Positions 1,629 through 36,139 of a stretch of DNA of 36,139 nt are shown here, one piece after another (position 1 is the first letter of the stretch; each line of letters starts with the position of its first letter). The notes beneath the pieces were generated by a model. It worked only from the letters and a program-made list of their open reading frames with translations, had not been told where the DNA came from and did no database searches. The translations under genes were made by a program, and so were the position numbers. Source of the DNA: Cyclobacteriaceae bacterium (GTDB lineage: Bacteria; Bacteroidota; Bacteroidia; Cytophagales; Cyclobacteriaceae); the NCBI GenBank assembly GCA_029882685.1, contig JAOUKH010000009.1, positions 1-36,139 of the forward strand, given 5' to 3'.

Positions 1629-1660
1629 CAAAGATATATGAAATACTGTGATTAGACAGA
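1629..1660 (-). promoter_or_regulatory. Candidate promoter of the FKBP gene
   Basis: On the minus strand TATCTTTG (1636-1629) is an exact TAnnTTTG -7 element. Twenty bases upstream stands TCTG (1660-1657), three of four matches to the -33 TTTG. The implied leader before the ATG at 1565 is about 55 bases. Confidence 0.4.
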
Positions 1661-1704
1661 ATTGAAAAAGAAATAACTAAAAAGTGTGTAAAAAATTAAT
1701 TAAG

Positions 1705-2736
1705 TTATTTTATTAATTCCATATCCTTTACAGCTCCAAATGATGGCTCAATAACCCACTCTCCATTTTTATTAATAAAACCCCATTTATCACCTTTTTT
1801 TGCTGCTGCAAAACCATTTTTAAAATCCCTTCCGCCATCAAATTTAGCTTCAATAACCCATTTTCCGTCTTTGTTAAAATAGCCAGTTTTACCACCTTTT
1901 ACCCCTTTAGCAAGTCCATTAGAAAAGTCAGATATTTTTTCTGAATCTACGGCTAAAACTTCTCCACTTCTATTTGTGTATACCCATTTTTCAGTTTCTT
2001 TTACCATAGCAAGTCCACTTGTAGGATCGAAATTTTTAGCCACTAAAAATTTTGGTTCAATTACCCACTCTCCTTTTTTATTTATGAAACCAACTTTTTT
2101 ATCCATCGTTTTTGCCCAAGCCACACCATCAATAAAATAGCCTACGCCAAAAAATTGCGCTGTAATAACTGTTTTTCCATCAGTACCAACGAAGCCAAAT
2201 TTTTTATCTGCTGCCCTATAAGGAGCCAAACCTTCGGAGAAATTTTTACAGTCAATAGCCCCTGCTATTACAAATTCTTCACCTGTTTTATTTACTACAA
2301 AGAGTTCTCCATTTTTGTGTACAACAGCAAACCCACCATCAAATTTAGATGCTTTTTCGTACTTTAATTCAATAGCTAATTTACCATCAGTATTGATGTA
2401 CCCCCATTTATCACCACTTTTTATCGGGACTAAACCATCAGAAAAACCTTGCATGCCAATTCCGAAAACATTAAAAAGTTTAAAATTTTCTATTTCAGTT
2501 GATAACTTCTCTCCTTTTGGATTAATGAAAAAGAACTTTTTATCTTCATAAATCGGGGCATAGCCATCAGAAAATTGATAACAACTTCTATATTTAGCTT
2601 CAATAGAAAACTCTCCTTTTTGATTTATGTATCCCCATTCTTTTTTGTCTGAGGGTCGTGCTTGTGTAAGGTAAGTTTGTGAAAAAGCACCAGTAGATAA
2701 TACTAAACTTAAGATAATAGTAAATGCAGATTTCAT
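1705..2736 (-). CDS. Exported WG-repeat protein
   Basis: 343 residues with a clear Sec signal peptide (MKSAFTIILSLVLSTGAFSQ, cleavage likely around residue 20). The rest is about nine WG/KWGYIN-type repeats of 35-45 residues, for example DKWGYINTDGKLAIELKYEK, KKVGFINKKGEWVIEPKF and DKWGFINKNGEWVIEPSF. Each is a beta-rich unit with a W/Y-G-(Y/F)-(I/V)-N core followed by G-(E/K)-W-V-I-E-P-x-F. Several units have drifted from the consensus (FFFINPKGE, WVYTNRSGE). WG-repeat proteins are common and largely uncharacterised in Bacteroidota; a periplasmic or surface binding role is a guess. It stands alone, and no strong terminator is visible downstream (only an AT-only hairpin near the stop). Confidence 0.9.
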   Translation of the reverse strand: MKSAFTIILSLVLSTGAFSQTYLTQARPSDKKEWGYINQKGEFSIEAKYRSCYQFSDGYAPIYEDKKFFFINPKGEKLSTEIENFKLFNVFGIGMQGFSDGLVPIKSGDKWGYINTDGKLAIELKYEKASKFDGGFAVVHKNGELFVVNKTGEEFVIAGAIDCKNFSEGLAPYRAADKKFGFVGTDGKTVITAQFFGVGYFIDGVAWAKTMDKKVGFINKKGEWVIEPKFLVAKNFDPTSGLAMVKETEKWVYTNRSGEVLAVDSEKISDFSNGLAKGVKGGKTGYFNKDGKWVIEAKFDGGRDFKNGFAAAKKGDKWGFINKNGEWVIEPSFGAVKDMELIK

Positions 2737-3022
2737 ATAATTAGTGTTTATAATTAGTGATTTATAATTAAAGATATGGATAATTAAACTAATTCATAAT
2801 AATAGCTGCAAAAATATCATGAAATTAATTTCACGACATCAATTAGGTTGTTACAAACCAGACAGACTCTTTTCAAATTTCTTCATTCTAGCTATAAAGT
2901 TTCAAGGGTTAATCACTGGTGAATAGAACCGTTAGAGTTTTTTATTTTATAAATCACTGTAGTAGTTACTAAAGTGATATATTTCTGAATTTCACCAAAC
3001 TAAAACAATTCTGTCGGTCAAA
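2737..3022. other. Intergenic region, no gene recognised
   Basis: AT-rich sequence between the start of the WG-repeat gene and the SDR remnant. On the minus strand a near-match to a -7 element (TATCTTTA, 2776-2769) lies about 33 bases from the WG-repeat ATG. I see no open frame, RNA gene or strong hairpin. Confidence 0.5.
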
Positions 3023-3226
3023 TCAAATATCCCCCAACTGTGTTTGCATAATAATTTCTTCAATCACTGCTGATTTAGACAAATTATAAGCTGCATACAC
3101 CTATTCTGTAACATCCTCTGCTTTCATAAATCTGTCTTCGGGAAAATATACACCTTCCCAGCTTGCGGTTAATGTAGCTCCAGGCATAATACTCACTGTA
3201 GACAAATATTAAATACATGTCCATTT
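3023..3226 (-). pseudogene. Remnant of the 3' part of the SDR gene (duplicate of 5366-6067)
   Basis: This stretch repeats the end of the intact short-chain dehydrogenase gene in the same orientation, 2343 bases away. Bases 3023-3190 align without gaps to 5366-5533 with 14 mismatches in 168 positions. The next block (3191-3226) aligns to 5645 onwards, so 111 bases (37 codons) of the intact gene are missing. The junction falls on a 9-base direct repeat, AGGCATAAT. The remnant has an in-frame stop where the intact gene encodes Ser (GAA TCG GTG has become GAA TAG GTG), a one-base deletion near 3202, and several amino-acid changes before a terminal TGA. It cannot encode a functional SDR. Its upstream end overlaps the last codons of the hybrid kinase gene. 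Confidence 0.85.
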
Positions 3227-4528
3227 CATTATCATAGAATAAAGTTCTTCCAATTTGTAGGGTTTACCCAAATGATCGTCAAGCCCATCTGCAATATATT
3301 TTTCTCTGACTCCTTTTATAGTGTCTGCTGTTACCCCAATAATTGGAGGGACTAATTTATTTTGTTCTTTAATCTTTTTTGTAGTCGTAACTCCATCCAT
3401 TACAGGCATATGTATATCCATTAATATAATGTCAAACTTTCCTTCTTCAAACATTTCAACTGCTAATTCCCCATTAGTTGCTGTCCAAATGTGACACCCT
3501 AATTTTTTCAACATTCTCTTCCCGATATATATATTCATATCATCATCATCAACCAATAGGCAATTAAATCCAAGATCATTCCTTACTTTAGAAGGACTCT
3601 TATCTAATTCTGAAATTTCTGTTATTATGTTGGACTCCAATATAATCCAAAAGGTGCTACCAACACCCAATTTGCTTTCCACTCCAATTTTACCATCAAT
3701 TAACATCACTAATTCTTTACATATAGCTAATCCTAACCCTGTTCCTCTAATAGAATTTGAATATGCATTGTCAAGTTGTTTATACTTTTGAAAAATCTGA
3801 CCTAAACTTTCTTCAGGAATTCCGATTCCATAATCTATAACTTGAACTTTAAATCGCACTTTATTTTTATGAATTTCGATTATAGTAATTATTACTTCGA
3901 TCGTCCCTTCTTCACTAAATTTTATAGCATTTAGTATCAGGTTAGAAATAATTTGGGAAACTTTAACTTTATCAATTTCGATTGATTGAGGAAAATCAGA
4001 AGGAATAACTAACTCAATCTTAAGTCCTTTCTTTTCAGCTTGTTCCATAAACAACTTACTCAAATCATTAAGTAGTTTATTCATGTTGACAGGAATGAGT
4101 TGTATTTCTAGCTTATTCTCTTCTAATTTTTTTAAATCCAACACGTTGTTGGCTATTACTAACAATTGTTCAGAACTTCGGGAAAGAATATTCATATCCT
4201 CACTTTGTTTATTAGTCAAGTTTGGATCTCTTTTCATTAGATCAATCATTCCAATAATTCCATTCAGAGGTGTGCGTATTTCATGACTCATGTTTGATAG
4301 GAACTTGCCTCTAGTTTCTGCAAGACTCTCGGCAATTTGTTTTTTACGAGTTGCTTCATCGATATCTAGCTTTTGCCTCTTTATTAGTTCTTCCACCAAC
4401 ATGTTAATGCCAACCATTATAGCATCAATTGAATCCTCTTTATTACTTGGGGTCAGATAATTGTAATCTGAACCATTTGCAACGTTGATAATAAATTTTT
4501 GTATTTCTGATAACCTTTGGTCATCCAT
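3209..4528 (-). CDS. Hybrid sensor histidine kinase/response regulator, no membrane sensor
   Basis: 439-residue cytosolic hybrid kinase. Residues 1-65 form a helical N-terminal segment with the DSIDAIMVGINMLVEEL pattern seen in many Bacteroidota kinases. HisKA carries the phospho-acceptor His82 (SNMSHEIRTPLNG). The HATPase domain shows the N-box around N200 (NLILNAIKF), DYGIGIPEE at 232-240 and RGTGLGLAI at 261-269. A receiver domain follows, with the DDDD acid pocket at 327-330, phospho-acceptor D371 (LMDIHMPVMDG) and K422. There is no transmembrane or PAS sensor, so input probably comes from the STAS-like protein encoded three bases upstream. There is no HPt or output domain, so a partner must exist elsewhere. 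The last four codons and the stop lie in sequence homologous to the SDR gene, read in another frame. Confidence 0.9.
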   Translation of the reverse strand: MDDQRLSEIQKFIINVANGSDYNYLTPSNKEDSIDAIMVGINMLVEELIKRQKLDIDEATRKKQIAESLAETRGKFLSNMSHEIRTPLNGIIGMIDLMKRDPNLTNKQSEDMNILSRSSEQLLVIANNVLDLKKLEENKLEIQLIPVNMNKLLNDLSKLFMEQAEKKGLKIELVIPSDFPQSIEIDKVKVSQIISNLILNAIKFSEEGTIEVIITIIEIHKNKVRFKVQVIDYGIGIPEESLGQIFQKYKQLDNAYSNSIRGTGLGLAICKELVMLIDGKIGVESKLGVGSTFWIILESNIITEISELDKSPSKVRNDLGFNCLLVDDDDMNIYIGKRMLKKLGCHIWTATNGELAVEMFEEGKFDIILMDIHMPVMDGVTTTKKIKEQNKLVPPIIGVTADTIKGVREKYIADGLDDHLGKPYKLEELYSMIMKWTCI

Positions 4529-4531
4529 GCT

Positions 4532-4909
4532 TTAATCATTTGAAATTAACCATGTAATTGCTTTATCTTTATTTGAAAAGAGTTTTACTGGGACAGTACC
4601 TTTATTTAATCCAATAAAGAAATTTCCAATCATATTACTAATGGGTGAATCAGTCCAAAGTGCTGCTTTGCTAATTATTTGTTGGGATTCTACCCCTGTA
4701 AAATAATCCCTCGCTTCAGACTCTATCGATTTTACATTACGAATATCAACCAATAAAGGCATTTTAATTAATGAAGAAATAAGTTCTTTTTCTGCTTCAA
4801 CATTTTCAATCGCATCAGAAATAGAAATTCTTACATCAGCCATATAATCAACTCTCAAAATGTCATTTTCAATGTACACTGTCGATGTCTTTGTTTTAAT
4901 TTTATTCAT
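4532..4909 (-). CDS. STAS/SpoIIAA-like protein paired with the hybrid kinase
   Basis: 125-residue soluble protein. It begins with a short beta-strand segment (TSTVYIENDILRVDYMADVR), then has the characteristic MPLLVDIRNVKSIESEARDY core and ends with IGNFFIGLNKGTVPVKLFSN and a short helix (KDKAITWLI). This is the pattern I associate with STAS/SEC14-like proteins that sit beside soluble histidine kinases in Cytophagales and other Bacteroidota. The gene ends three bases before the kinase ATG, implying translational coupling. The likely role, by inference, is an input or partner protein for the kinase. The signal it senses is unknown. Confidence 0.6.
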   Translation of the reverse strand: MNKIKTKTSTVYIENDILRVDYMADVRISISDAIENVEAEKELISSLIKMPLLVDIRNVKSIESEARDYFTGVESQQIISKAALWTDSPISNMIGNFFIGLNKGTVPVKLFSNKDKAITWLISND

Positions 4910-5365
4910 CTTAATTGGTATCTAGTCATTACGAAATAATTACATTTCATGTAAATAAAACACAATTGTGAAAATAATGATCATTGGAGATTTCATTCTC
5001 GACATTGAGACTGAAAATCGTTAAACTATTCATTATCTACTATTTTCTTGATAGTTAAAAATTATCCAGTCCTAATCCCCATAAAACTTAATCAATCTTA
5101 CAAAATGGCAACCATAGAAAATGACAACATAGATGTGAAATTCGTTTTTCTTAATGTTTATCCTCACTGTTGATAGATAGTAAAATTAATGTTTTAAGTA
5201 ATTACATCCAAGTTGTAGAAGTTTCAACTACAAGATTTTCTACACTTTTATTGTGTCTATTTATCATGCTTTTCAAAAAAAATATTACAACAACTACAGT
5301 AACACCCTTTTTGTCACTAAAGTTTAAAGCAATAAATTTCTACAAAAATCTCTTTTTAATTAAAG
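4910..5365. other. Intergenic region between the STAS gene and the SDR gene
   Basis: 456 bases without a convincing gene; the short frames here lack family features and have poor starts. It should contain the promoter of the STAS-kinase pair, but no good TTTG-N19-TAnnTTTG match is visible on the minus strand. One inverted repeat, TTGTAG (5213-5218) with CTACAA (5228-5233), lies downstream of the SDR stop and lacks a T-tract, so it is not a clear terminator. Confidence 0.5.
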
Positions 5366-6067
5366 TTAAATATCTCCCAATTGTGGGCGCATAATAATTT
5401 CTTCAATCACCGCTGATTTAGACAAATTATAAGCTGCATACACCGATTCTGCTACATCCTCTGCTTTCATAAATCGATCTTCGGGTAAATCTACACCTTC
5501 CCAGCTTGCGGTTAATGTAGCTCCAGGCATAATGGCGGTTACTTTTATGTCATGCTCTTTCATTTCTTCACGCAAAACCTTTGTCATGCCAAGCATAGCA
5601 TATTTAGAAATACAATAAGATCCACCATTTACATAAGGCATAATACTCGCTGTAGAACAAATATTAAACACATGTCCACTTTTACGACTCATCATTTCTG
5701 GAATAATTTTTCTTGTGAGATGATATGCACTATATAAATTCGTGTTTATCATTTTTTCTAATGCCCCTTCTGCTTCATTGTGCATTTGACCAGGGATAAA
5801 GACTCCAGCATTATTCACTAATACATCTGCGCCACCTAGTGAATTAACATAGTCGCCAAAATCAATCACATCTTTACGGGTTGCCACATCAACTTTTTTG
5901 GTATGTACTTCTATTTGTGTATGTTTTTTAATTTCTATTTTTAGCGCATCCAATTCATCACTATTCCTCGAACAAGTGATTATATCGAATCCATTTGCAG
6001 CAAATTTTTCGATTATCGCTCTCCCGATTCCTTTTGTCCCACCAGTAACAACAATTCGTTTGTTCAT
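5366..6067 (-). CDS. Short-chain dehydrogenase/reductase (SDR)
   Basis: 233-residue classical SDR, an NAD(P)H-dependent oxidoreductase of unknown substrate. The Rossmann nucleotide motif TGGTKGIGRA is at residues 8-17, NNAG at 85-88, catalytic Ser138 (ICSTAS) and YCISK with Tyr151 and Lys155. The PGATLTASW segment after the last core strand is typical of 3-ketoacyl reductase-like members. An open frame extends 28 codons upstream, but the extension (QFYYCFFFSILRKI) is not SDR-like. The ATG at 6067 gives the normal length and leaves an 82-base divergent spacer before mlaE, so it is chosen. The 3' part exists as a second, broken copy at 3023-3226. Confidence 0.92.
   Translation of the reverse strand: MNKRIVVTGGTKGIGRAIIEKFAANGFDIITCSRNSDELDALKIEIKKHTQIEVHTKKVDVATRKDVIDFGDYVNSLGGADVLVNNAGVFIPGQMHNEAEGALEKMINTNLYSAYHLTRKIIPEMMSRKSGHVFNICSTASIMPYVNGGSYCISKYAMLGMTKVLREEMKEHDIKVTAIMPGATLTASWEGVDLPEDRFMKAEDVAESVYAAYNLSKSAVIEEIIMRPQLGDI
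5525..5644. repeat. 9-bp direct repeats AGGCATAAT within the SDR gene
   Basis: AGGCATAAT occurs at 5525-5533 and again at 5636-5644, 111 bases apart. The remnant at 3023-3226 has a single copy (3182-3190) and lacks exactly the DNA between. This is the footprint of a deletion by slippage or short-homology recombination. Confidence 0.85.
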
Positions 6068-6106
6068 TATTTCCAACTGTAATTTCAACTTTAAGATTAT
6101 ACCTGT

Positions 6107-6122
6107 TATCTTACGCAAGATA
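6107..6122. promoter_or_regulatory. Inverted repeat in the SDR/mlaE divergent spacer (possible operator)
   Basis: TATCTT-ACGC-AAGATA is a perfect 6-bp dyad with a 4-base centre, near the middle of the 82-base spacer between two divergent genes. No T-tract follows, so it is not a terminator. Position suggests an operator, but short dyads also arise by chance in AT-rich DNA. Confidence 0.25.
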
Positions 6123-6149
6123 GAGAAGAAGAAACAATAATAAAATTGC

Positions 6150-6893
6150 ATGCAATTAGCATTTATTCATAACCTAGGAAAGTATTTCGTGTTTATGGGT
6201 TCGCTTTTCACAAATCGCGAATCGTTTAAAACTTATTTTAAACTCACCATCGATGAGTGTGTACTAATTGGTGTGAACTCCATTGTATTGGTAAGTATTG
6301 TTGCCACATTTATGGGGGCAGTTACAACCTTACAAACAGCTTATAACCTCGTTAGTCCTTTCATTCCTGATTATGTGATTTCATTAGTAGTTCGTGATAT
6401 GACGGTATTAGAGTTAGCCCCAACCATCATTGCTGTAATTTATGCTGGTAAAGTAGGGTCAAGCATTGCAGGAAATTTAGGTACTATGAGGATCACTGAA
6501 CAAATAGATGCATTAGAAGTTATGGGGATAAATTCAAGTTCATATTTAGTACTTCCAAAAGTGGTCGCTTCCATTTTAATGTATCCACTTTTGGTAATTA
6601 TTGCTGGTATTCTGTCATTAACAGGTGGGTATTTGGTGGGTGTTTTATTAAACATTATGTCTCCCCAAGACTTTATTTTTGGTATCCGTGATGGATTTAA
6701 CCCCTTTTCAATTCAATTTGCACTTATAAAATCGGTAGCCTTTGCCTTTCTTATTAGTTCAATTTCATCCTATAAAGGATATTATACTCAAGGAGGAGCA
6801 TTAGAAGTAGGTATTGCAAGTACTCAAGCTGTTACAACTAGTGTAATCGCAGTACTTTTTGCCGACTATTTATTAGCTCAATTATTATTATAA
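6150..6893 (+). CDS. mlaE: MlaE-family lipid-transport ABC permease
   Basis: 247-residue integral membrane permease of the MlaE/YrbE family, which moves phospholipids between the inner and outer membranes with MCE proteins. The family signature is clear: MTVLELAPTIIAVIYAGKVG followed by SIAGNLGTMRITEQIDALEV and MGINSSSYLVLPKV at about residues 85-135, with hydrophobic helices before and after. The length is slightly below that of the E. coli protein. It is followed three bases later by its ATPase, so the two form an operon. The substrate-binding MCE protein (MlaD) that usually accompanies them is not in the window. Confidence 0.93.
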   Translation: MQLAFIHNLGKYFVFMGSLFTNRESFKTYFKLTIDECVLIGVNSIVLVSIVATFMGAVTTLQTAYNLVSPFIPDYVISLVVRDMTVLELAPTIIAVIYAGKVGSSIAGNLGTMRITEQIDALEVMGINSSSYLVLPKVVASILMYPLLVIIAGILSLTGGYLVGVLLNIMSPQDFIFGIRDGFNPFSIQFALIKSVAFAFLISSISSYKGYYTQGGALEVGIASTQAVTTSVIAVLFADYLLAQLLL

Positions 6894-35890: not shown

Positions 35891-36017
35891 AAATCATCTT
35901 TTATAACCAAAAGATAATAACAACTTCATAGAGAAAATATTATCTGCTGAACTAAATATTTTTCGTGCAAACGTTTAGGGTGCTATTGAGTGAAAAAGTG
36001 AAATTAAAATAAACCCG

Positions 36018-36112
36018 GATTATGCAATAAAATTCGTAATGAAGCCATAAAGCACAAAGAAATAGGTGGTTATGCAAAGAAGCATAGCACCGCTATGGTG
36101 ATGCGCATAATC
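36018..36112. repeat. Inverted repeat GATTATGC / GCATAATC with internal hairpin
   Basis: GATTATGC (36018-36025) is the reverse complement of GCATAATC (36105-36112). Between them lie a further TTATGC and a hairpin CACC-GCTAT-GGTG flanked by GCAT/ATGC. The cluster of TATGC/GCATA elements at the window edge suggests an insertion-sequence end or a regulatory region of a gene beyond the window. Confidence 0.35.
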
Positions 36113-36139
36113 AAAATGAAGTGTCTATTTCACAGTGAT

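Follow-up and report, generated by a model that had tools for sequence, protein, structure and literature searches.

A STAS–histidine kinase pair lies between an intact SDR gene and a decayed copy of its 3′ end in a Cyclobacteriaceae genome

In the window analyzed here, a 36,139-nt stretch of a Cyclobacteriaceae genome, a STAS-like gene and a hybrid histidine kinase gene are flanked by an intact short-chain dehydrogenase (SDR) gene and a decayed duplicate of its 3′ end. The locus appears to record a chance event of DNA uptake or recombination that added a signalling pair beside SDR. It is a known kind of scar, recurrent in the same genome, and we infer its mechanism. Our preferred explanation, which we hold tentatively, is an additive insertion, by homology-facilitated illegitimate recombination (HFIR) or in a Campbell-like manner, that combined a single crossover between homologous sequences in the SDR 3′ end with one illegitimate join at the kinase 3′ end. 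The locus is thereby a legible trace of gene gain that can be dated in relative terms, has no mobile-element enzyme nearby and can be searched for elsewhere as a gene-end duplicate flanking genes that are missing from a sister species.

Results

Extent and decay of the duplicated SDR 3′ end

A BLASTN self-comparison aligned the 3′ part of SDR with sequence 2.3 kb away on the same strand. Positions 3025-3190 correspond to 5368-5533 (166 nt, 92.2% identity, E = 3e-64), and a second same-strand block pairs 3182-3226 with 5636-5681 (91.3%). The first-pass annotation had described a same-orientation repeat of the SDR 3′ end at about 92% identity, broken by a stop and a frameshift, and this description is borne out: the copy carries an in-frame TAG and has one base fewer, in addition to a 111-nt (37-codon) deletion. 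The repeat that had been placed near 3023-3226 is real, with exact limits of 3020-3226; the parts that align without gaps are 3020-3190 and 5363-5533 (Table 1). The copy is the counterpart of SDR from nt 387 to 3 nt beyond the stop codon. Its deletion is bounded by two repeats of the 9-mer AGGCATAAT, which is common to both repeat blocks, and is of the slippage type.

The copy is closer to 5366-5690, as had been proposed, than to any other gene compared, with 92% identity to 5368-5533 versus 81.5% to the SDR gene of a sister species. No nearer DNA relative was present in its own genome among the 40 scored of 87 candidates, and no nearer protein relative was found there, the next own-genome SDR being 34% identical.

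Table 1. Features of the SDR locus (window coordinates)
Feature	Position	Strand	Basis or remark
WG-repeat protein gene	1705..2736	-	Pfam WG_beta_rep 1.3e-53; missing from sister's SDR-FKBP interval
Stretch without counterpart in sister between SDR and FKBP	1646..5357	.	blastn blocks 10-1645 and 5357-6844 vs L055
Decayed copy of SDR 3′ end	3020..3226	-	In-frame TAG, 1-nt frameshift, 111-nt deletion
Kinase ORF end / SDR copy overlap	3209..3226	-	Junction at or in AA[A/G]TGG
Predicted soluble hybrid histidine kinase (HisKA, HATPase_c, Response_reg)	3209..4528	-	Pfam; stop and last residues within SDR copy
STAS-like protein, DUF7793 / SpoIIAA-like	4532..4909	-	Pfam DUF7793 5.8e-30
Decayed member of dispersed MITE-like repeat family (~190 bp)	4957..5137	+	nhmmer 2.7e-40
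Intact-SDR segment present in copy (last 316 nt including stop, plus 3 nt)	5363..5681	-	Sequence comparison
Intact SDR gene, divergent from MlaE	5366..6067	-	Pfam adh_short 3e-48; 83% aa identity to sister G001

Genes between the copies

A gap of 3 nt separates the STAS gene from the kinase gene downstream of it, and the STAS protein matches PF25056 (DUF7793) at 104 bits, the cut-off being 26. The HisKA, HATPase_c and receiver domains of the kinase all pass the Pfam cut-off, and the protein is predicted to be soluble, as no membrane segments were seen on reading its sequence. Between the copies, no ORF other than these two reaches 80 aa; the earlier statement that just two coupled genes are present holds for ORFs of that length but leaves out ~450 bp of intergenic DNA containing the repeat at 4957-5137. 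No recombinase is found among ORFs of this size between the copies, in agreement with the reported absence of an integrase. A search for an RNA element near STAS gave 0 Rfam matches in 2700-5500 at E values up to 1. A foreign origin was not supported by composition, as the GC and GC3 of both genes resemble those of their neighbours and are unremarkable among the 28 window genes.

The MITE-like repeat was considered as a border of the insert and rejected, since it sits 225 bp inside and belongs to a widespread family (21 nhmmer matches in 20 of 102 own-genome stretches). Terminal inverted repeats are seen in the sister's copy of this repeat, and two further dispersed repeat families are abundant in the window's own genome.

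Among the matches listed from 390 genomes of the order, the best DUF7793 relative outside the own genome is 39% identical. DUF7793 genes in other genomes of the order have a kinase match nearby, and some share an N-terminal GINML-EEL stretch; here, unlike at those loci, STAS precedes a hybrid kinase that ends in SDR-derived sequence. A plasmid or viral home for the STAS gene was not supported, as plasmid records gave 3 matches at 31% identity and viral contigs gave none by a method that detects close relatives only. The pair constitutes a signalling module, and a literature search under the Pfam name DUF7793 returned no paper.

Comparison with a sister species

The sister species G001, the sole other genome of the genus compared, has the order MlaE-SDR-FKBP-NUDIX and lacks the STAS-kinase pair, the WG gene and a second SDR 3′ end. 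Its SDR-FKBP interval holds ~181 bp of unalignable sequence in place of 1646-5357, and this ~3.7 kb is, as judged by alignment, lineage-specific against one relative. The first-pass annotation had raised an insertion and predicted that an empty site would place SDR directly next to the WG gene. A lineage-specific insertion is supported in that the pair and the second 3′ end are missing from the sister, but the SDR-WG arrangement was not found. Because the WG gene is missing as well, the variable stretch exceeds the pair and the copy, and more than one event may have occurred. The idea that the WG gene is a moved orthologue gained no support: the nearest WG gene of the sister is 42% identical (aa) and lies at a different location, and the matching slot in the own genome is filled by two ORFs, the one tested of which matches DUF6090.

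SDR and MlaE are close together in 18 of 30 stretches from relatives (L087-L116). FKBP is beside SDR in the sister only, with one weak FKBP match 3.7 kb off in L094, and synteny beyond the genus therefore gives no polarity. When the sister's sequence downstream of SDR was compared with three candidate flanks in the window, shuffle p values were 0.51, 0.03 and 0.28, and the match at 0.03 was not collinear; as far as these alignments go, the sister's sequence does not identify the native flank.

Relative age and pattern of differences

The copy and the intact gene differ at 14 of 168 positions (8.3%), versus 24 of 168 (14.3%) between the intact gene and that of the sister. As the first distance is below the second, the duplication by this measure postdates the separation of the two species. 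An ancestral arrangement, with an old duplication and deletion of the stretch in the sister, is accordingly very improbable: the comparison rests on one other genome of the genus, but a freely evolving copy should not be nearer to the intact gene than the intact gene is to its sister counterpart, and recombination between the repeats would have left the WG gene in place.

Of the 14 differences, 10 arose on the copy, 3 on the intact gene, and 1 is ambiguous. The copy changes are distributed 4/2/4 over codon positions, as in a pseudogene; those at 680-682 may be one event. All 3 intact-gene changes fall within its last 16 nt, 3′ of every copy change, a clustering with a probability of 1/286 by label permutation in a post hoc test. 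This is the pattern that one crossover near the SDR 3′ end would give.

Homology between the copy and the intact gene ends 3 nt past the stop codon. The 200-bp downstream flanks score 20, whereas simulated relatives diverged by 8, 15 and 25% score at least 250, 174 and 82, respectively; with divergence set to 35%, a score as low as that of the observed flanks came up in 1 of 200 simulations.

The junction and its possible origin

The kinase ORF (4528-3209) terminates within the copy, its last 3-5 residues and stop codon consisting of SDR-derived DNA in another frame. The kinase end meets SDR nt 387 and shares AA[A/G]TGG with it; homology at the junction is limited to this motif and is thus little or none.

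An additive insertion would proceed as follows. Donor DNA from a related strain, with STAS-kinase downstream of SDR, would undergo a single homologous crossover with the resident chromosome in the SDR 3′ end, and the kinase 3′ end would be joined illegitimately to the resident SDR gene of a sister chromosome, near nt 387 and through the few shared bases AA-TGG. Alternatively, a circular donor could enter by one (Campbell) crossover with the same resulting structure. SDR would remain whole, and a 5′-truncated SDR end with native downstream DNA would be left on the far side, where the truncated end would then decay. The kinase would retain its receiver domain, having probably lost a short native tail, and the pair may since have been maintained by selection. 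Consistent with an additive insertion, the sister lacks pair and copy, the copy begins at the kinase end with shared AA-TGG, and like scars occur elsewhere in the genome. The postulated donor order SDR-STAS-kinase was not found: the genus was represented by one other genome, and the search of 390 genomes of the order listed no DUF7793 relative outside the own genome above 39% identity. A single event of this kind leaves the WG gene unaccounted for.

The position of the junction also bears on a reading in which STAS-kinase already lay downstream of SDR and a ~319 bp SDR piece was later copied by template switching to the kinase 3′ end. One short copying step would be enough, and the copy does start exactly at the kinase end with few shared bases, yet this reading gives no reason for the end of the copied piece to lie at the SDR stop, the empty site in the sister would not be covered by the same event, and the clustered intact-gene changes would be due to chance. 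We regard this course of events as unlikely. The first-pass annotation had also named a duplication spanning the insert. Such a tandem duplication of the unit SDR 3′ part-STAS-kinase, with a later deletion that removed the second STAS-kinase and began just past the second SDR stop, seems similarly doubtful. It yields the same order and orientation, and the available part of PMC3784515 documents that unequal exchange produces tandem duplications in pneumococcus. However, it requires a second event with an edge 3 nt past the stop, there is no trace after the copy of the intact gene's downstream sequence or of a second whole unit, and gnd and L228 copies elsewhere in the genome likewise lose homology 2 nt past their stops.

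Similar scars elsewhere in the genome

A survey covering 1.22 Mb of this genome gave three further gene-end duplications that flank other genes. In all three 3′-end cases (SDR, gnd and L228) homology is lost 2-3 nt after the stop codon, at 2 nt in the gnd and L228 copies; the truncated duplicates span ~130 to 360 nt, and two of the three cases lie at contig edges. The fourth case, whose edge coincides with a MITE-like repeat, involves the 5′ end of a CMD/AhpD-like gene; the same sister has an empty site here. The dispersed MITE-like repeat is near two of the four scars, which we note as a lead only. Four such duplicates within roughly one third of the genome suggest repeated use of one route.

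That homology breaks off so sharply at stop codons is a specific peculiarity open to testing, and a donor strain alone does not say why this happens in 3/3 of the 3′-end cases. A process that needs no integrase yet recognizes gene ends, repeatedly bringing in accessory genes, joining them 2-3 nt from the resident stop and leaving a 5′-truncated duplicate on the far side, is conceivable but improbable; the 5′-end case may be a variant of it.

Islands mobilized by tyrosine recombinases enter the 3′ ends of genes (tRNA genes, icd, guaA) and restore the gene end. As at the SDR locus, the restored end is near and the displaced remnant far; unlike those islands, the SDR locus has no integrase, a remnant of ~300 nt, and counterparts with varied targets. 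Site-specific integration at the SDR 3′ end, by an element bringing a replacement gene end and a recombinase acting in trans or since lost, would account for the intact gene, the displaced far-side remnant and the end of homology 2-3 nt past all three stops. No recombinase is found among the ORFs between the copies, the remnant starts ~300 nt before the stop while intact-side changes occupy only the last 16 nt, and the targets differ, one being a 5′ end. We judge such integration to be quite unlikely.

Relation to described systems

A literature search found analogies to the structure of the SDR locus and, in the portions of the sources available, no description of the same structure. The additive insertion that we favour resembles, in the available text of PMC3119063, the deletion-coupled insertions of Haloquadratum walsbyi, in which unrelated DNA occupies one position between conserved neighbours; they are attributed there to uptake from close relatives, and that text, unlike the SDR locus, describes no duplicated neighbour-gene end. 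HFIR that leaves displaced gene ends has been proposed, in the available text of PMC5361080, for Vibrio cholerae T6SS effector-immunity arrays and, as cited there, for rhs loci. As described in that text, the arrays resemble the SDR locus in having a conserved gene as the single homologous anchor and one illegitimate end, with new genes behind the anchor and the old 3′ end downstream in the same orientation. The arrays swap a toxin tip, whereas SDR keeps the same protein end, its remnant is a decaying pseudogene, and what was added is a signalling pair.

Extent and decay of the SDR gene-end duplicate

The first-pass annotation described the 3' end of the short-chain dehydrogenase (SDR) gene as repeated in the same orientation at about 92% identity, and a BLASTN comparison of the window with itself recovered this repeat in two same-strand blocks, 3025-3190 against 5368-5533 (166 nt, 92.2%) and 3182-3226 against 5636-5681 (91.3%). 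Ungapped limits were 3020-3190 and 5363-5533. Because the 9-mer AGGCATAAT is common to both blocks, the copy was read as one SDR 3' end (316 + 3 nt) that starts at SDR nt 387, extends 3 nt beyond the stop codon and has lost 111 nt in a deletion of the type made by slippage between short repeats. The stop and frameshift reported earlier were seen as an in-frame TAG and a 1-nt frameshift, in addition to the deletion. Own-genome searches, in which 40 of 87 candidates were scored, gave no relative of the copy closer than the adjoining SDR, in line with the initial assignment of 3023-3226.

In the 200 bp beyond the stop codon, SDR and copy had no similarity (local score 20), whereas simulated pairs scored at least 250, 174 and 82 at 8, 15 and 25% divergence (200 runs each); at 35% divergence, 1 of 200 scored as low. 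Since pairs at 8-25% divergence score far above 20, the edge at the SDR stop is real and not a result of decay. Tandem duplication followed by deletion is possible, but the sharp edge speaks against a plain tandem duplication.

Comparison with relatives

The sister, the other genome of the genus compared, has the gene order MlaE, SDR, FKBP, NUDIX, as does the window. Its SDR-FKBP gap of 277 bp, ~181 bp of it not alignable, contains no STAS, kinase or WG gene and no second SDR end; the variable stretch is thus window 1646-5357. The insertion proposed earlier is therefore supported by the sister's lack of the pair and of a second 3' end, although the insert is larger than first thought; the predicted empty site, with SDR directly beside the WG gene, was not found, as the sister has no WG gene there either. 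An SDR relative was present in 39/39 genomes searched, and SDR was close to MlaE in 18 of 30 stretches of relatives (L087-L116). FKBP adjoined SDR within the genus only, which leaves a single outgroup. The sister SDR-FKBP sequence did not tell which of three window flanks is the native SDR flank (shuffle p 0.51, 0.03 and 0.28), and the match at p 0.03 was not collinear.

Age and direction of the duplication

Over the 168 nt common to the copy, the intact SDR and the sister SDR, there are 14 differences between copy and intact gene, 24 between the intact and sister genes, and 31 between copy and sister. When the sister serves as outgroup, the copy accounts for 10 of the 14 changes (4/2/4 by codon position) and the intact gene for 3, and 1 is unclear. 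Judged from these sequences, the duplication must, barring gene conversion, be younger than the species split, because the freely evolving copy is still closer to the intact SDR than the sister is. The 3 intact-gene changes are confined to the last 16 nt, and every one of the 10 copy changes lies 5' of them. Such segregation, spotted after the fact, arises once in 286 with random labels; of the copy changes, the three neighbouring ones at 680-682 may represent a single event. Segregation of this kind would result from one crossover between an incoming SDR end and the resident one.

The STAS-kinase pair

That a STAS-like protein and a hybrid kinase lie between the copies was confirmed, with the amendment that the kinase ends in SDR-derived sequence. 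Its ORF runs into the copy, the stop codon and last 3-5 residues being SDR DNA in another frame, and the two are joined at AA[A/G]TGG, common to both genes. Among 14 distinct homologues whose alignments extend through the receiver domain (15 rows, two being one gene), 7 have Trp at the position of Trp436 of the window kinase and all 14 continue for 20 codons or more, so the window kinase probably lost a native C-terminal tail right behind this domain. The homologues are mostly longer proteins, and a naturally short kinase end that lost no tail is a conceivable alternative.

In simulations assuming one age for pair and copy and ~6.5% neutral substitutions, both ORFs of the pair stayed stop-free in 8 of 1000 neutral runs; on the same premise, ~11 stop or frameshift lesions would be expected in the pair at the copy's rate. 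Both ORFs are intact, which argues that STAS and kinase are probably in use. Binding or gating of the soluble kinase is a possible role of the STAS protein, judging from its family. A kinase match was nearby at 8 of 31 distinct DUF7793 loci (35 rows, ~1.5 kb surveyed each side), the window among them and one on the opposite strand; 5 have an N-terminal GINML-EEL stretch in common. No mention of DUF7793 was found in the literature searched.

Features of the window and rows of the own-genome scan (L, stretch; C, contig)
Feature	Location	Remarks
SDR gene	window 5366-6067 (-)	
Decayed copy	window 3020-3226 (-)	
Intergenic DNA		~450 bp; adjoins SDR, first going outward from it
DUF7793/SpoIIAA-like STAS gene	window 4909-4532	
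Hybrid histidine kinase	window 4528-3209	HisKA, HATPase_c and receiver domains
Scar, SDR 3' end	window	homology ends 3 nt after stop
Scar, CMD/AhpD-like gene 5' region	L058 (C76) 3131-3330 and 6131-6475	two rows
Scar, gnd 3' end	L215 (C157) 1-363 and 3577-3939	
Scar, ORF 3' end	L228 (C30) 140-274 and 1429-1551	
Other rows	L214, L257	two families also in other stretches
Other rows	L234, L273, L280	three intergenic or terminator-like pairs
Other row	L282	adjacent paralogous ORFs
Other row	L149	paralogous ORFs
Other rows	L190	two rows; repeats within one long ORF
Other rows	L240	three rows; pairs in or between long ORFs
MITE-like repeat	window 4957-5137	
MITE-like repeat	L058 5941-6129	
MITE-like repeat	L224 2273-2463	with insertion

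Other scars in the same genome

The genome was scanned against itself over 102 stretches (1,215,180 bp, ~35% of the genome), a non-random sample in that some contigs were picked for repeat or STAS matches. Ten rows were obtained at ≥60 nt and ≥78% identity, 700-9000 nt apart, and 17 at 70% identity, 500-9000 nt apart. Five of the 17 make up four gene-end cases: SDR, CMD/AhpD-like, gnd and the L228 ORF. The gnd copies (363 nt, 98.9%; homology ending 2 nt after the stop) have between them one gene for a 1015-aa DUF5122/Por-secretion-tail protein, and gnd had no match at all in the sister. At L228, where 136 positions align and homology again stops 2 nt past the stop codon, the copy is disrupted by a stop as well as small deletions, and a single 249-aa ORF lies between the copies; with 75.7% identity, this is an older duplicate. 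Because both cases begin at or near contig edges, their intact genes are incompletely covered; contig C53, separated by a gap, apparently carries the beginning of the gnd C-terminal domain.

On C76, the CMD upstream region and first part of the gene (6131-6475) recur at 3131-3330 with an internal deletion, and an AraC-type regulator and ilvC lie between the copies. The sister CMD gene directly adjoins the next gene, with no copy, regulator or ilvC. Read one way, the window and C76 show the same order of parts, with a neighbour followed by one accessory gene, the copy, two genes, the MITE-like repeat and the intact gene.

As a control, 53 stretches of the sister and of more distant genomes (770,987 bp), most of them built around SDR loci, were scanned in the same way. 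Of the 16 pairs obtained, several involve ORF parts, and none coincides with the 3' end of a gene to within 40 nt of a stop. The contrast of zero cases in 0.77 Mb with four in 1.22 Mb cannot be called firm. The scar described in the first-pass annotation is a true one, its guess of an insertion was correct, and the pattern recurs in this genome.

Mechanism

Additive insertion with one homologous and one illegitimate end is best supported. SDR would provide the homologous end and the kinase joined to SDR nt 387 the illegitimate one, by homology-facilitated illegitimate recombination (HFIR) or single-crossover integration of a circle. The same two ends characterize HFIR as proposed for T6SS effectors displaced in sequence in Vibrio (PMC5361080). 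Two further papers describe pairing of incoming DNA with the sister chromatid, a model tested for merodiploids in pneumococcus (PMC3784515), and uptake from close relatives, inferred in Haloquadratum (PMC3119063). Additive insertion does not account for the loss of homology at the stop codon in 3/3 3'-end cases, one unexplained regularity of the scars. This regularity would follow from a process sensitive to gene ends, for instance a site-specific element working in trans, but such a process lacks an enzyme and a common target; template switching is also possible. The SDR scar is a known kind of event, its mechanism unproven.

Dispersed repeats and the WG gene

The MITE-like family (~190 bp) gave 21 hits in 20 of the 102 own-genome stretches (1.22 Mb). 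The sister's copy is bounded by terminal inverted repeats of 18 nt (CAGGGC-type, 94% complementary) and is split by an insertion with an ORF that reads as transposase-like. On C76 the repeat end (6129) abuts the start of the duplicated segment (6131); in the window they are 225 bp apart. A tie to the scars is only a lead, because other repeat families are abundant.

Two such dispersed families are abundant in this genome. The contig end, window 36010-36139, lies in another dispersed repeat, found in 9 other sampled stretches (87-98% identity), and a ~350-bp repeat at L214 3823-4359, also in 5 other stretches, sits inside a MITE-like copy.

In the slot upstream of guaA (L118 7154-8209, L149 7919-9056), the sister has a WG-repeat gene, whose place in the own genome is taken by two ORFs, of which one matches DUF6090. 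The WG gene of the own genome adjoins FKBP in the window. Its C-terminal end (window 1715-1866) is 78% identical in DNA to the sister WG gene, the proteins being 42% identical overall, a likeness that perhaps comes from repeat-unit turnover or partial conversion.
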